Source: Halosolutus amylolyticus (lineage in GTDB: Archaea > Halobacteriota > Halobacteria > Halobacteriales > Natrialbaceae). Taken from it: a stretch of 64,000 nucleotides of DNA. A program made the position numbers and the translations under genes. Under the pieces are notes generated by a model. That model had not been told where the DNA came from. It saw only the letters and a program-made list of their open reading frames with translations, and did no database searches. Where the stretch lies: positions 434,001 through 498,000 of the forward strand of contig NZ_JALIQP010000003.1 of NCBI RefSeq assembly GCF_023566055.1, read 5' to 3'. Below are positions 7,878 through 47,987 of the stretch, in pieces (position 1 is the stretch's first letter; each line of letters starts with the position of its first letter).

Positions 7878-7990
7878 TAATCCTGGGGTGCCCGTGCCGT
7901 CCGTCGTTCCCCTCCTAATCTGGGGTGACCGTGCAGTCGGTCGTTCCCCTCCTAATCTTGGGGTGACCGTGCAGTCGGTCGTTCCCCTCC
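7878..7990. repeat. Three tandem copies of a 37-38 base repeat
   Basis: Three head-to-tail units at 7878-7915 (38 bases), 7916-7952 (37) and 7953-7990 (38). Units two and three differ by a single inserted T; the first has a few substitutions. Each unit has a TAATC start, a GGGGTG core and a GTTCCCCTCC end. The array sits between the ADP-kinase start and the PEP synthase remnant and does not encode an obvious peptide. With no spacers between units it is not a CRISPR array. Confidence 0.9.
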
Positions 7991-41877: not shown

Positions 41878-44694
41878 TCAGGAGATGTGTATGGCGGGCT
41901 TTCCGGGGCGGGCTTTCGCGGCTGACTCCGAACCCGGCGTGGCCGTCCGGACGGCCACGTCCGCGTCGAACTCGTCGGTTACGAGCCACGTCGCCCGTTC
42001 CAGGAGAGAGCGCTCCCGATCGCGAGGGAGTTGCTGGCCGGCCTCCGGGTCCAGGTCTGCGAGGAACGACGCGACGGTCTCCCGATCCACGGGAACCGCC
42101 TCGTCGACGGCCCGATCGACGATCGACGCGCGCTCCTCGGACTCGTCCGCGGCCCGGAGCGCCGCGACCCGGTACTTCCAGTCCGGCGCAACGACCAGTT
42201 CGATCCGTTCGGGATCGTCGATCGCCGCCACGTCGACGATGTCGCGGACGTCGTCGACGGTCGTTTCGATGAGTCGCCGCTCGCGCTCGTAGGCGGTGAC
42301 GTCCCGATCGGGGTCGGGCCAGTCCGCTTCGACGACGAGTCCGTCACCGCGGAGTTTGTTCCAGAGTTCCTCGCCGAGGTGTGGTGCCATCGGGGCCAGC
42401 AGCGCCGCCAGCGTCAGCAGACCCCGCCGGTAGGTCGCCTCGTGGGGCCGATCGAACTCACGGTAGCGCCGGAGCAGGCGCGCGAGTTCCCGGATCTCCG
42501 TCGCCGCACGGTGGAACCGGAACCGCTCGTACTCGTCGGTCACCGCGGCGATCGTCCGATCGATCTCGGCGGCGAGGTAGTCGTCGTGGTCGCGCCGTTC
42601 GACGCGGGTCTCGTCCTCCGTGACGAATTCGGTCACCATCCGATGGACGGTCTGCTGGAGGTCGTAGGCCCCGCGTACGTCGTTCGCGGTCCACTCGAAG
42701 TCCTGTTCCGGATGGGCCGCCGAGAGGAGGAACAGCCGCGTCGTCTCCGCGCCGTACTCCTGTGGCGTGACGACGTTCCCTTTCGAACTGGACATCTTCT
42801 CGCCGTCGTACAGCACCGTTCCCTGACTGACGAGTTTCTCGACGGGTTCGCGCCGGTCGAGCAGGCCGATGTCGGCCAGCGCCCGAGTGAAGAAGCGAAT
42901 GTACAGCAGGTGGAGCACGGCGTGTTCGTCGCCGCCGACGTAGACGTCGACCGGGAGCCACTCGGCGGCCCGATCGACGTCGAACGGCGCGTCGTCGAGG
43001 TCCGGCGAGAGGAATCGCAGGAAGTACCACGAGGAGTCGACGAAGGTGTCCATCGTGTCCGTCTCGCGGCGGGCAGGTCCGCCACACTCCGGGCAGGTCG
43101 TCTCGCGGAAGGTGTCGTGTTCCTCGAGCGGGTTCCCCGTCGTCCGGACGAACTCCGGCAGTTCCACGGGGAGATCCTCGTCCGGCACGAGGACGTGACC
43201 ACAGTCGTCACAGTGGACGACCGGGATCGGCGTCCCCCAGTAGCGCTGACGGGAGATCAGCCAGTCCCGCAGCCGGTAGGTGACGTCGTCCTCGATCGCG
43301 TCGTGCTCGTCGGGCAGTTGCTCCCGGACGGTGGCACTCTCGAGTCCGTCGTACGCCGGCTGATCCGGGATCGAGAGCCGTCCCTCGCCCGTGTACGCCG
43401 CCGACTCGAGGTCGAGGTCCGGGTCCGGGACATCGTCGGCCGCCTCGGGGACGAGGACCGACTCGATCGGCAGGCCGTGTTCGCGGGCGAACGCGTGGTC
43501 GCGATCGTTGTGCGCGGGGACACCCATCACTGCGCCGGTCCCGACGTCGTCGAGGACGTAGCCCGCGACGTACACCGGCAGTTCCTCGCCGGTCAGCGGG
43601 TTCACCGCACGCGCGTCCGTTTCGACGCCGTCGAAGCCGACCTCGTCCGGCCCTCGCTCGCGGACCGTTGCCACGTAGTCCGCGACCGCGTCGTCGGCTT
43701 CGGCCAGTTCCCGCGCGAGGTCGTGACCCGGCGAGACGGCGACGTAGGTCGCCCCGAAGACCGTCTCGGGGCGGGTACTGAACACGTCGACCGCGGTAGT
43801 CCCGTTTCCGCGGCCGTCGTCGCCGATCGGTTCGACGTCGAACGTGAGTCGCGCGCCTTCCTGCCGGCCGATCCAGTTGCGCTGGATCTCCCGGACGCCG
43901 TCGGGCCACTCCGCGAGATCGTCGAGGCCCTCGTACAGTTCCTCGGCGTAATCGGTGATCGTGAAGAACCACTGGTCGAGTTCCCGGCGACCGACTGGGG
44001 TCTCACACCGCCAGCAGACCCGATCGTTGCCGCTCGCTCGTTCCGAGGCCTCACTACGTTCGGCCTCGCGGCTCGCGGCCTCGTCGCTCGCTCGTTCCGA
44101 GGCCTCACTACGTTCGGCCTCGCGGCTCGCGGCCTCGTCGCTCGCTCGTTCCGAGGCCTCACTACGTTCGGCCTCGCGGACCTCGACCTGTGCGTCGGCC
44201 AGCACGGTCTCGCAGTCCGGACACCAGTTGACCGTCGCGGCCTCGTACTCGACGAGTCCCTCCTCGTAGAGGCGCTTGAACAGCCACTGGTTCCAGCGGT
44301 AGTAGTCTGGCTCGCAGGTGGTTATCTCCCGGGACCAGTCGTAGCCAAAGCCCATCGTCTCGAGTTCCTCGCGCATCCGGCGGATACATGCCTGCGTCCA
44401 GGATTCCGGATCGCTCGCCCGCTCGTAGGCGGCGTTCTCCGCCGGGAGGCCGAACGCGTCCCAGCCCATCGGATGGAGGACGTCGTCGCCCTGCATCCGT
44501 CGGTAGCGGGCGTAGGCGTCCGTGATCGCGTAGTTCCGGATGTGGCCCATGTGGAGTTCCCCGGAGGTGTAGGGGAACATTCCGAGGACGTAGGTCGGAT
44601 CCACCGCGTCGTCGTCCAGTTCGTAGACGTCGTCGCGCTCCCAGACGTACTGCCAGAACTCCTGCACTTGCGCGTGGTCGTAATGACTGGTCAT
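41878..44694 (-). CDS. leuS: Leucyl-tRNA synthetase, bacterial-type, with repeat insertion
   Basis: A 938-residue class I synthetase charging tRNA-Leu. The HIGH-type motif is PYTSGELHMGHIRNY (residues 41-55) and the KMSKS-type motif is GEKMSSSKGN (631-640). The editing domain (about 280-470) holds GTGAVMGVPAHNDRD. A zinc knuckle, CPDC at 158-161 and CWRC at 227-230, is split by an insertion at about residues 172-222 made of near-identical 18-residue repeats (REAERSEASERASDEAAS), encoded by the DNA array at 44032-44178. The enzyme should be essential, so the insertion must be tolerated. No neighbouring tRNA gene. Confidence 0.93.
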   Translation of the reverse strand: MTSHYDHAQVQEFWQYVWERDDVYELDDDAVDPTYVLGMFPYTSGELHMGHIRNYAITDAYARYRRMQGDDVLHPMGWDAFGLPAENAAYERASDPESWTQACIRRMREELETMGFGYDWSREITTCEPDYYRWNQWLFKRLYEEGLVEYEAATVNWCPDCETVLADAQVEVREAERSEASERASDEAASREAERSEASERASDEAASREAERSEASERASGNDRVCWRCETPVGRRELDQWFFTITDYAEELYEGLDDLAEWPDGVREIQRNWIGRQEGARLTFDVEPIGDDGRGNGTTAVDVFSTRPETVFGATYVAVSPGHDLARELAEADDAVADYVATVRERGPDEVGFDGVETDARAVNPLTGEELPVYVAGYVLDDVGTGAVMGVPAHNDRDHAFAREHGLPIESVLVPEAADDVPDPDLDLESAAYTGEGRLSIPDQPAYDGLESATVREQLPDEHDAIEDDVTYRLRDWLISRQRYWGTPIPVVHCDDCGHVLVPDEDLPVELPEFVRTTGNPLEEHDTFRETTCPECGGPARRETDTMDTFVDSSWYFLRFLSPDLDDAPFDVDRAAEWLPVDVYVGGDEHAVLHLLYIRFFTRALADIGLLDRREPVEKLVSQGTVLYDGEKMSSSKGNVVTPQEYGAETTRLFLLSAAHPEQDFEWTANDVRGAYDLQQTVHRMVTEFVTEDETRVERRDHDDYLAAEIDRTIAAVTDEYERFRFHRAATEIRELARLLRRYREFDRPHEATYRRGLLTLAALLAPMAPHLGEELWNKLRGDGLVVEADWPDPDRDVTAYERERRLIETTVDDVRDIVDVAAIDDPERIELVVAPDWKYRVAALRAADESEERASIVDRAVDEAVPVDRETVASFLADLDPEAGQQLPRDRERSLLERATWLVTDEFDADVAVRTATPGSESAAKARPGKPAIHIS
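44032..44178. repeat. 54-base tandem repeat inside leuS
   Basis: Two full 54-base units (44032-44085, 44086-44139) and a partial third (44140-44178) are almost identical at DNA level. They encode, in frame, repeats rich in Glu, Ala, Ser and Arg between the two cysteine pairs of the leucyl-tRNA synthetase zinc knuckle. Identity of the DNA units indicates recent expansion. Confidence 0.92.
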
Positions 44695-46991: not shown

Positions 46992-47987
46992 ATGCGCCGT
47001 AACGTCCGACACAATCGTGCGAAGTCGCGATCGATTCAGACCAGCGTCCAGGTGTTGCTCACCGTCAGCGGAATCGTCCTCCTGCTGGCCGGACTCACGC
47101 TCGCCGCGAGTGGCGCGTCCGTCGGCGGGGCGCTCGGGTCGGTGAGCGACGAATGGGACGGTTCGGATTCGGGCGACGACGTGGACGGAGCGGACGACAT
47201 ACCCGACGACGCGGACGGGAGCGACGACGCGAACGAGACTGACGACGCGGACGGGAGCGACGACGCGAACGAGACTGACGACGCGGACGGGAGCGACGAC
47301 GCGAACGAGACTGACGACGCGGACGGGAGCGACGACGCGAACGAGACCGATAGTGGCGATCAGGACGACGGACCCGGAGAGGACGGCTCCGGGGACGACG
47401 GCACCGACTCCGACGGTAACGAGACCGACGGCGACGACGGCGGAAACGAGACCGACGACGACGGACCGCATACGCTGACGGTGATCGTCGAAGACGACGA
47501 CGGCAACGCGATCGACGACGCCACCGTCGAGGTCGACGTCGCGTTCGGCACGACCGAGGAGCGAGACGTCGACGTCGACGGCGAAGCCGAGTTCGAACTC
47601 GAGGACGGCCGGTACACCGTCACGGGGACTGCGGACGGCTACGCCGACACGAGCGAGCAGGTCGAGATCGACGGCGACGACGAGACGGTCACGCTGACGC
47701 TCGAATCGACCGACGACGGCGCCGACGATGGCACCTCAACGCTGACCACGATCGTCGAAGACGACGACGGCAATGCGATCGACAACGCGACCGTCGAAGT
47801 CCAGGAAGACAGCCTCTTCGGCTCGAGCGAGGAGCGAGACGTCGACGGCGACGGCGAAGCCGAGTTCGAACTCGAGGACGGCGACTACACGGTGACGGCG
47901 ACCGCGGAGGGCTACGACGAGTCGACGACCGACGTCACGATCGACGGCGACGACGAGACGATCACGCTGACCCTCAAGGAAAGCTGA
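46992..47987 (+). CDS. Exported repeat protein with two carboxypeptidase-regulatory-like domains
   Basis: A 331-residue protein. A basic N-terminus leads to a hydrophobic segment (about 19-42, VQVLLTVSGIVLLLAGL) acting as signal or anchor. Four exact 12-residue acidic repeats (DDADGSDDANET) follow at about residues 72-119. Two Ig-like domains of the carboxypeptidase-regulatory type come after (about 158-238 and 248-331), each with TIVEDDDGNAIDDATVEV, a GEAEFELEDGxYTV strand and ITLTL end. They are homologous to each other. It is probably a surface-anchored stalk protein with calcium-like acidic repeats; binding is inference. Confidence 0.72.
   Translation: MRRNVRHNRAKSRSIQTSVQVLLTVSGIVLLLAGLTLAASGASVGGALGSVSDEWDGSDSGDDVDGADDIPDDADGSDDANETDDADGSDDANETDDADGSDDANETDDADGSDDANETDSGDQDDGPGEDGSGDDGTDSDGNETDGDDGGNETDDDGPHTLTVIVEDDDGNAIDDATVEVDVAFGTTEERDVDVDGEAEFELEDGRYTVTGTADGYADTSEQVEIDGDDETVTLTLESTDDGADDGTSTLTTIVEDDDGNAIDNATVEVQEDSLFGSSEERDVDGDGEAEFELEDGDYTVTATAEGYDESTTDVTIDGDDETITLTLKES
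47205..47348 (+). repeat. Four tandem 36-base repeats in a surface-protein gene
   Basis: Four 36-base units (47205-47240, 47241-47276, 47277-47312, 47313-47348) are identical except for one base in the last. Each encodes DDADGSDDANET. Exact identity at synonymous positions indicates recent expansion, making copy number likely to vary among strains. Confidence 0.95.

Follow-up and report, generated by a model that had tools for sequence, protein, structure and literature searches.

A repeat in the zinc knuckle of a haloarchaeal leucyl-tRNA synthetase as a probable copy of a protein-coding palindromic mobile element

Why does an essential enzyme carry a perfect tandem repeat exactly between the two cysteine pairs of its zinc knuckle? 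The question is raised by the leucyl-tRNA synthetase (LeuRS) gene of Halosolutus amylolyticus, which lies in the window analysed here, a stretch of 64,000 nucleotides (positions 434,001 to 498,000 of contig NZ_JALIQP010000003.1, assembly GCF_023566055.1) in which all positions below are counted. The LeuRS insert is very probably a resident copy of a haloarchaeal mobile element, palindromic and protein-coding, analogous to the Rickettsia palindromic elements.

The LeuRS repeat and its hairpin

The enzyme belongs to the bacterial type, as it scores well above the curated TIGR00396 (leuS_bact) cut-off (793.7 bits for 548.4 required) and has both zinc cysteine pairs; the four cysteines are invariant in all 34 haloarchaeal LeuRS aligned. 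Its nearest solved relative is 2v0c, which we take to be a Thermus structure, and the alignment covers both sides of the loop. The array found there by Tandem Repeats Finder (TRF) has a period of 54, 100% matches and a score of 298 over 149 bp, and the stretch 44032-44178 is 147 nucleotides long, exactly 49 codons (18 + 18 + 13), and lies between CPDC and CWRC; the reading frame of LeuRS is intact. The features are:

41878..44694, minus strand: bacterial-type LeuRS, 938 amino acids, ATG start, carrier of the insertion
44212..44223, minus strand: first zinc cysteine pair CPDC, residues 158-161 (C158-P-D-C161), invariant in 34 LeuRS
44005..44016, minus strand: second zinc cysteine pair CWRC, residues 227-230 (C227-W-R-C230), invariant in 34 LeuRS
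44031..44179, minus strand: tandem array, 54 bp x 2.8 copies, 100% identical (TRF)
44125..44178, minus strand: unit 1 (REAERSEASERASDEAAS)
44071..44124, minus strand: unit 2, same sequence as unit 1
44032..44070, minus strand: unit 3, truncated (REAERSEASERAS)
44152..44176, minus strand: hairpin of unit 1, arms CGAGGC/GCCTCG, apex CGAACGTAGTGAG at 44158-44170
44098..44122, minus strand: hairpin of unit 2
44044..44068, minus strand: hairpin of unit 3

The initial annotation had counted about 50 extra residues between the CxxC pairs, encoded by near-identical DNA units; both observations hold, as many relatives have a loop of 17 residues where this one has 65, and the three copies are perfect.

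Each unit contains a hairpin with a fixed apex, CGARCGNAGYGAG, and variable arms. The coding strand reads CGAGGX-CGARCGNAGYGAG-YCCTCG, where X and Y are the innermost arm pair, and the apex consensus C-GA-RC-GNA-GY-GA-G comprises a closing C-G pair, then a GA/GA step, one R-Y and one C-G pair, and the loop GNA. Two base pairs of this hairpin covary among the first units of 38 distinct LeuRS genes. First, the innermost arm pair (8-22) was Watson-Crick in 30 of the 38 (shuffle mean 12.1), and all four pair types were represented (GC 3, TA 11, AT 12, CG 4). Second, the synonymous pair 12-18, which joins the third base of a Glu codon (GAA/GAG) to that of a Ser codon (AGT/AGC), was Watson-Crick in 34 (shuffle mean 22.3). 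When independent sites were simulated along the tree from a paired start, the value observed for the arm pair was reached in 1 of 5000 simulations and that of the synonymous pair in 2 of 5000. An independent-pair test on starred branches, weak when taken alone, gave seven pairs at the synonymous position, of which a mean of 4.8 agreed and none was opposed (median p 0.06). Because the codons of X and Y form the two arms of the hairpin, the residues that they encode are coupled: they are Ala/Ala, Gly/Pro, Val/Thr, Asp/Ser or Ile/Ile when paired, and Asp/Pro, Val/Ser, Ile/Thr or Asn/Ser in the unpaired cases. It is the covarying DNA or RNA hairpin, not the peptide, that defines the unit.

The LeuRS loop was read with a regular expression in 143 of 151 loci, the eight unread loci being dropped, and this gave 113 distinct loops of 14-65 residues whose sequences are often unrelated. 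From this variation in length and sequence, the zinc-knuckle loop is evidently a permissive site, which agrees with one of the two alternatives put forward in the initial annotation. In other haloarchaea (L060-L063, L076-L079 and others) the loops between the zinc cysteine pairs are rich in His and Asp (GDDDHHDGT, GHSHTHGG) and possibly bind metal in their own right.

Many loops in the relatives that we take to be Natrialbaceae, the family to which the window was assigned through its best named matches, have 17, 35 or 53 residues and thus contain zero, one or two diverged 18-residue units of the form REXERSEYS...ASGDAASRE (rule 17+18n; 31 of the 38 rows with one or two units have exactly 35 or 53 residues). 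On a tree of the LeuRS flanks comprising 78 rows, two outgroups included, unit numbers were assigned by eye and loops of up to 19 residues were counted as having no unit; 25 rows had no unit, 28 had one, 10 had two, the window had 2 2/3, and the 14 rows with other lengths were left out. A minimum of 15 changes in unit count was required on this tree. The row nearest to the window is a congener (L169; 91% identity over the flanks) with one unit; two units were counted in the other congener (L174). On the simplest reading, the identical copies of the window, three in number, would have arisen after the split from L169, a loss in L169 being also possible. The empty loop of another relative (L041, EEREDERV) looks like the product expected from excision between flanking repeats.

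The description of the expansion as recent therefore stands for the multiplication, given the identical copies and the single unit of L169, and fails for the unit itself, of which diverged forms occur in Natrialbaceae. The unit is an old insertion in the LeuRS of this family that was repeatedly gained or lost, only its multiplication being recent. It is not a loop common to all orthologues, since many relatives have the 17-residue form.

Related units in other genes and genomes

DNA related to the unit was found in this genome in genes for a P-type ATPase (E 6e-4) and a DEAD-box helicase (E 1e-3), and within an FrhB/FdhB region, in its N-terminal part (E 7e-13); a weak match (E 0.19) fell in a luciferase-like monooxygenase gene. 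The element is sense-oriented in all four, as it is in LeuRS. A peptide search of the same genome with the window unit returned, besides LeuRS, two weak matches only (E 1.4 and 9.9). A search of 125 genomes of the family with unit peptides gave a match at E <=0.01 in 21 of them, mostly in LeuRS, and added an aldo/keto reductase (AKR), DUF2249 proteins, a nitroreductase-family protein and the FrhB/FdhB protein of a congener (the open reading frame [ORF] arrangement of the L357 match differs from that of L342-L344). The 18-residue unit lies in the LeuRS frame in P-type ATPases, AKR, the nitroreductase family, DUF2249 and FrhB/FdhB proteins. The search in this and related genomes that had been proposed at the outset thus located the unit in five gene families outside LeuRS, in line with the early guess of a mobile coding repeat.

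The inserts of LeuRS, ATPase, AKR and DUF2249 start and end at CGCGAG (Arg-Glu codons) or a near form. That all inserts share one frame may be due to the modules being multiples of three and to the hydrophilic peptide which that frame gives; in the A/T form (described below), TGA falls across the apex in one of the sense frames. The arm pair was kept in 13 of 14 distinct non-LeuRS units (nine loci, five gene families), and so was the synonymous pair, the remaining one being G-T. These units were collected with unit peptide queries and a regular expression demanding E.ERSE.S, so that the frame was selected and the pairing was not; three of them come from DUF2249 orthologues and are hence not independent.

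Empty sites were looked for in the ATPase, the helicase and LeuRS alone and were found in all three, in LeuRS as the 17-residue loops. The empty ATPase site reads VVYLVREGELLAAF, the filled one VVYLVRE[...RE]GELVAAF, and the six near relatives read were all without insert. The ATPase insert has 38 residues (an 18- and a 20-residue module) in a congener (G016), in another family member (G067) and in Halomontanus rarus (NZ_CP119797.1, annotated as heavy metal translocating P-type ATPase), and is reduced to 15 residues in this genome. None of the 22 relatives in which the loop could be read had the helicase insert of 22 amino acids; 29 had been fetched, of which L278, L279, L286, L290, L295, L298 and L300 were missed by the regular expression.

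Four apices in tandem modules were observed upstream of an FrhB/FdhB gene (G000:C1:827475-827899; L031:1976-2394). The frame of this array that starts with MGTDGE is broken by a stop codon at the point where the array has a short stretch, AGTGAGTCCT, twice over, and is open in the congener copy (L354); judging by these two copies, the upstream array seems unstable.

This genome has 20 copies of the A/T form of the apex, CGAACGNAGTGAG, and none of the reversed control. In 53 genomes of the order Halobacteriales 1200 copies were counted against 11 of the control, and every one of the 53 had it (median 18). Of 241 genomes sampled in the phylum but outside the order, 73 had it, mostly in one or two copies and at most in 11. 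Six of these genomes (G202, G228, G252, G348, G277 and G347) have 6-11 copies each with controls of 0-1, and the element is possibly present in these other archaea also. The 53 genomes of the order have 211 copies of the mismatched A..C form, CGAACGNAGCGAG, with 41 of its control, and 1667 of the G..C form, CGAGCGNAGCGAG, a number for which the reversed control is invalid because both patterns overlap when N=A. A looser pattern, CGANNGNANNGAG, was discarded as uninformative in this genome (784 sites for 189 reversed), many of the 100 sites listed being of a GATCG type.

Within 741 kb of DNA surrounding LeuRS loci, the loose pattern CGA..G.A..GAG matched at 107 sites. RC..GY was contained in every one of the 12 sites with arms of at least 4 bp and in 0 of 81 others. 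Outside LeuRS, the apices of these unselected loci were A..T (6), G..C (5), A..C (2) and G..T (1). In a larger set outside LeuRS, arms of at least 4 bp were present at 23 of 78 apices, compared with 29 of 4397 control sites; flank pairing over six positions was 0.45-0.73, compared with 0.23-0.34 in the control and 0.15-0.42 with slid partners; and 20 distinct arm sequences were found. Since this set includes loci fetched by apex patterns, its counts of A..T, G..C, A..C and G..T forms are biased; its arm statistics are not, and they show a fixed apex between arms that are free to vary, yet often paired.

A tRNA gene lies within 100 bp of an apex in 7 of the 43 loci scanned (L130, L137, L245, L254, L257, L260, L263, around 1501), which favours a role of some copies at the RNA level or as integration sites. 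In two of them (L130 and L137) a piece of the tRNA 3' end, inverted, comes after the apex hairpin. Rfam at its gathering threshold reported three tRNAs only in 11 loci and no match for the hairpin. This genome and Haloarcula (L128, L129, L138, L139, L085:3360) also have a larger family of repeats of the form GACGYAAGCAC...CGAACGNAGTGAG...GCGCRCAGCGAG, in which the outer inverted arms are long. Among plasmids, the one matching record was that of the Halomontanus rarus ATPase.

Proposed mechanism and competing explanations

We propose an element built of modules of about 54 bp, with a sister module of about 60 bp, each containing a hairpin with a fixed apex and variable, mostly pairing arms, arranged in tandem and bounded by CGCGAG or decayed forms of it. 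Modules would enter at CGCGAG sites, and an in-frame landing would add a hydrophilic Glu/Ser/Ala/Arg peptide that a loop can tolerate. Once resident, the element would gain or lose whole 54-bp units, presumably by slippage or by recombination between direct repeats, and in this genome the LeuRS zinc knuckle would recently have reached 2 2/3 identical units. The comparisons themselves show that the element is dispersed and lies in frame in unrelated genes, that relatives have empty sites (ATPase, helicase), that the arms covary and that the number of units changes. We infer that active transposition is the source of the dispersed copies, that slippage drives expansion and that the insert is neutral for LeuRS.

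Several observations weigh against this proposal. The G..C apex has 20 copies in this genome for 14 of its overlapping control. LeuRS units account for nine of the 12 armed apices in the unselected LeuRS-region DNA; elsewhere in it only 3 of 14 RC..GY apices are armed, and in the larger set 55 of 78 have no perfect 4-bp arm. The second LeuRS units (n=10) did not covary significantly (arm pair 4/10, synonymous pair 7/10), and in the Halomontanus ATPase (L359, outside the set of 14) one unit is paired and the second is not (GAC with CCC). The helicase insert is a related, non-identical element without CGCGAG borders. The window hairpin folded as DNA was no better than shuffled sequences (z -0.31 and -0.99) and as RNA weakly better (z -1.34 and -1.46); other units as RNA gave z -1.5 to -2.9, and folding of the window unit with DNA parameters gave the outer stem. 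No mover enzyme could be linked to the element: this genome has three IS200-type Y1_Tnp genes, and no armed apex was present in the 3.4 kb scanned around each; with none of the three PF01797 loci carrying one, an IS200/IS605 Y1 transposase was rejected as the mover. Viral contigs had no exact match to GAGGNCGARCGNAGYGAGNCCTC, a pattern that covers LeuRS-type arms only. Finally, the inserts showed no clean target duplication of foreign sequence, and the flanking CGCGAG may be target homology.

The covariation of the arms might have arisen without selection. Templated repair of a quasi-palindrome copies one arm from the other, and if this happened during replication it would maintain pairing by itself, an explanation that is possible though doubtful. 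The imperfect intermediates (D/P, V/S, I/T and N/S) are consistent with it; that the apex alone is fixed across the order is not explained by it. It is also compatible with a mobile element and offers no alternative to dispersal. Pairing may be maintained through selection on the DNA or on the RNA, or through such repair.

It is rather unlikely that the hairpin is in essence an mRNA element that serves 3' processing, stability or regulation, was dispersed through duplication and is kept by selection for RNA structure, its residence in coding sequence being secondary. RNA folding of the window unit gives the predicted hairpin, with the 2x2 GA step, two pairs and the three-base loop, and the tRNA neighbours and the sense orientation in LeuRS and the four other genes of this genome (E 0.19 only for the luciferase-like one) point the same way. 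This explanation does not account for in-frame insertion in unrelated ORFs, and orientation and frame may merely be those that give a tolerable hydrophilic peptide.

A plain coding minisatellite, that is, slippage in a disordered acidic loop whose likeness to other sequences reflects GC-rich Glu/Ser/Ala/Arg composition, would fit the perfect tandem copies of the window and the free variation of the loop in other haloarchaea. It is very improbable, as the 18-residue unit, its frame and its borders recur in at least four unrelated proteins, the covarying positions include synonymous ones and the apex is enriched 1200:11. An adaptive expansion, in which a longer zinc knuckle tunes leucylation or editing, is highly unlikely. 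In its favour, the insert lies exactly between intact cysteine pairs; against it, the unit count of relatives may be 0, 1 or 2 and has shifted at least 15 times on the tree. An AlphaFold model of the whole LeuRS (34 rows) had a mean pLDDT of 68.2 and a pTM of 0.48, with residues 1-26, 29-55, 71-104 and the insert below 50; being poor over much of the enzyme, and too poor to judge adaptation, it has no bearing on charging and was not used as evidence. The perfect identity of the copies could also betray an assembly artefact in copy number, for which there is hardly any chance, the array being merely 149 bp long with an intact frame and relatives carrying one or two diverged units.

The mobile palindromic element thus remains the preferred reading of the LeuRS insert. 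A bolder version of it is tentative: the Halobacteriales might have a mobile-DNA class of their own, made of hairpin modules defined by a fixed special apex, which an apex-recognising enzyme acting on single-stranded DNA would insert at CGCGAG, the arms drifting since pairing alone is read. The sequence GCGAAGC forms an extraordinarily stable DNA mini-hairpin, and the apex contains it when R=G, Y=C and N=A. If such a class exists, haloarchaeal proteins would continually be built up with a Glu/Ser-rich coding frame. Proteins of relatives carry stretches that resemble selfish DNA, and nucleic-acid structure here visibly dictates amino-acid pairs in proteins. With an abundant element spread over the order, with laboratory strains at hand, and with alleles of an essential gene and of other genes that are either filled or empty, haloarchaea offer a genetic system for finding the mover enzyme and for measuring the cost of the peptide to its host enzyme.

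Other tandem repeats were noticed in the window. Two lie in one 331-aa ORF, a 36 bp x 4.0 repeat (100%) at 47203-47370 that codes for DDADGSDDANET repeats and a 273 bp x 1.9 repeat (83%) at 47456-47975; a further one is a 38 bp x 3.0 repeat (92%) at 7878-7990.

Comparison with known palindromic repeats

Palindromes that lie in frame in protein genes are already known. The full-text literature search, which included passages of PMC2841640 and PMC3119063 and left most subscription papers outside its scope, found no description of the haloarchaeal element.

Small transposase-free repeats of one haloarchaeon, the PATEs and SMRs of Haloquadratum, are alike in kind; by their description, PATEs are tied to IS605-type transposons, and SMR-A is about 110 bp long with inverted terminal repeats and targets PATEs or IS605 (PMC3119063). 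An IS605-derived PATE was rejected, as the Y1 scan of this genome gave one unarmed apex-like match (L269) only. Intragenic REPs occur in some bacteria, with tRNA synthetases among the hosts, and the GTAG/CGTC REPs resemble the present element as short palindromes found singly or in groups, in and between genes (PMC3733652). They differ in carrying a GTAG or CGTC tag, the GTAG repeats being often near RAYT genes (PMC3733652); in the haloarchaeal apex neither tag is conserved, the base that would give GTAG being N: of the 20 sites of the A/T form in this genome, the three LeuRS copies alone have T there. A REP of this kind with a RAYT was rejected, given the lack of a conserved tag and of armed apices at the three Y1-type loci of this genome (0/3). 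Inverted repeats are likewise kept inside coding sequence in the mitochondria of Nematomorpha; these reach 284 bp, their arms encode conserved protein regions, and the abstract does not describe dispersed copies (PMC6649704).

The closest parallels are coding palindromes reported from Rickettsia, Wolbachia and one methanogen (PMC2996958). The Rickettsia palindromic elements (RPE; Ogata et al., 2000) were found in 19 reading frames and are, like the present element, dispersed palindromes in frame within genes for conserved proteins, RPE occurring also outside genes (PMC2229807). The haloarchaeal palindrome shares with them its in-frame residence in several unrelated genes and the empty sites of relatives. 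On the published description, RPE measure 105-146 bp and have terminal inverted repeats (PMC2229807), whereas the haloarchaeal element is GC-rich and consists of modules of 54 or 60 bp in tandem, their apex fixed and their arms variable and covarying. The Methanocaldococcus elements (2005), again compared by description, are palindromic repeats of another archaeal lineage similarly fused into protein genes (PMC2229807, PMC2996958). The combination of a fixed apex with free arms, the order-wide spread and the CGCGAG borders distinguish the haloarchaeal element from the known coding palindromes.

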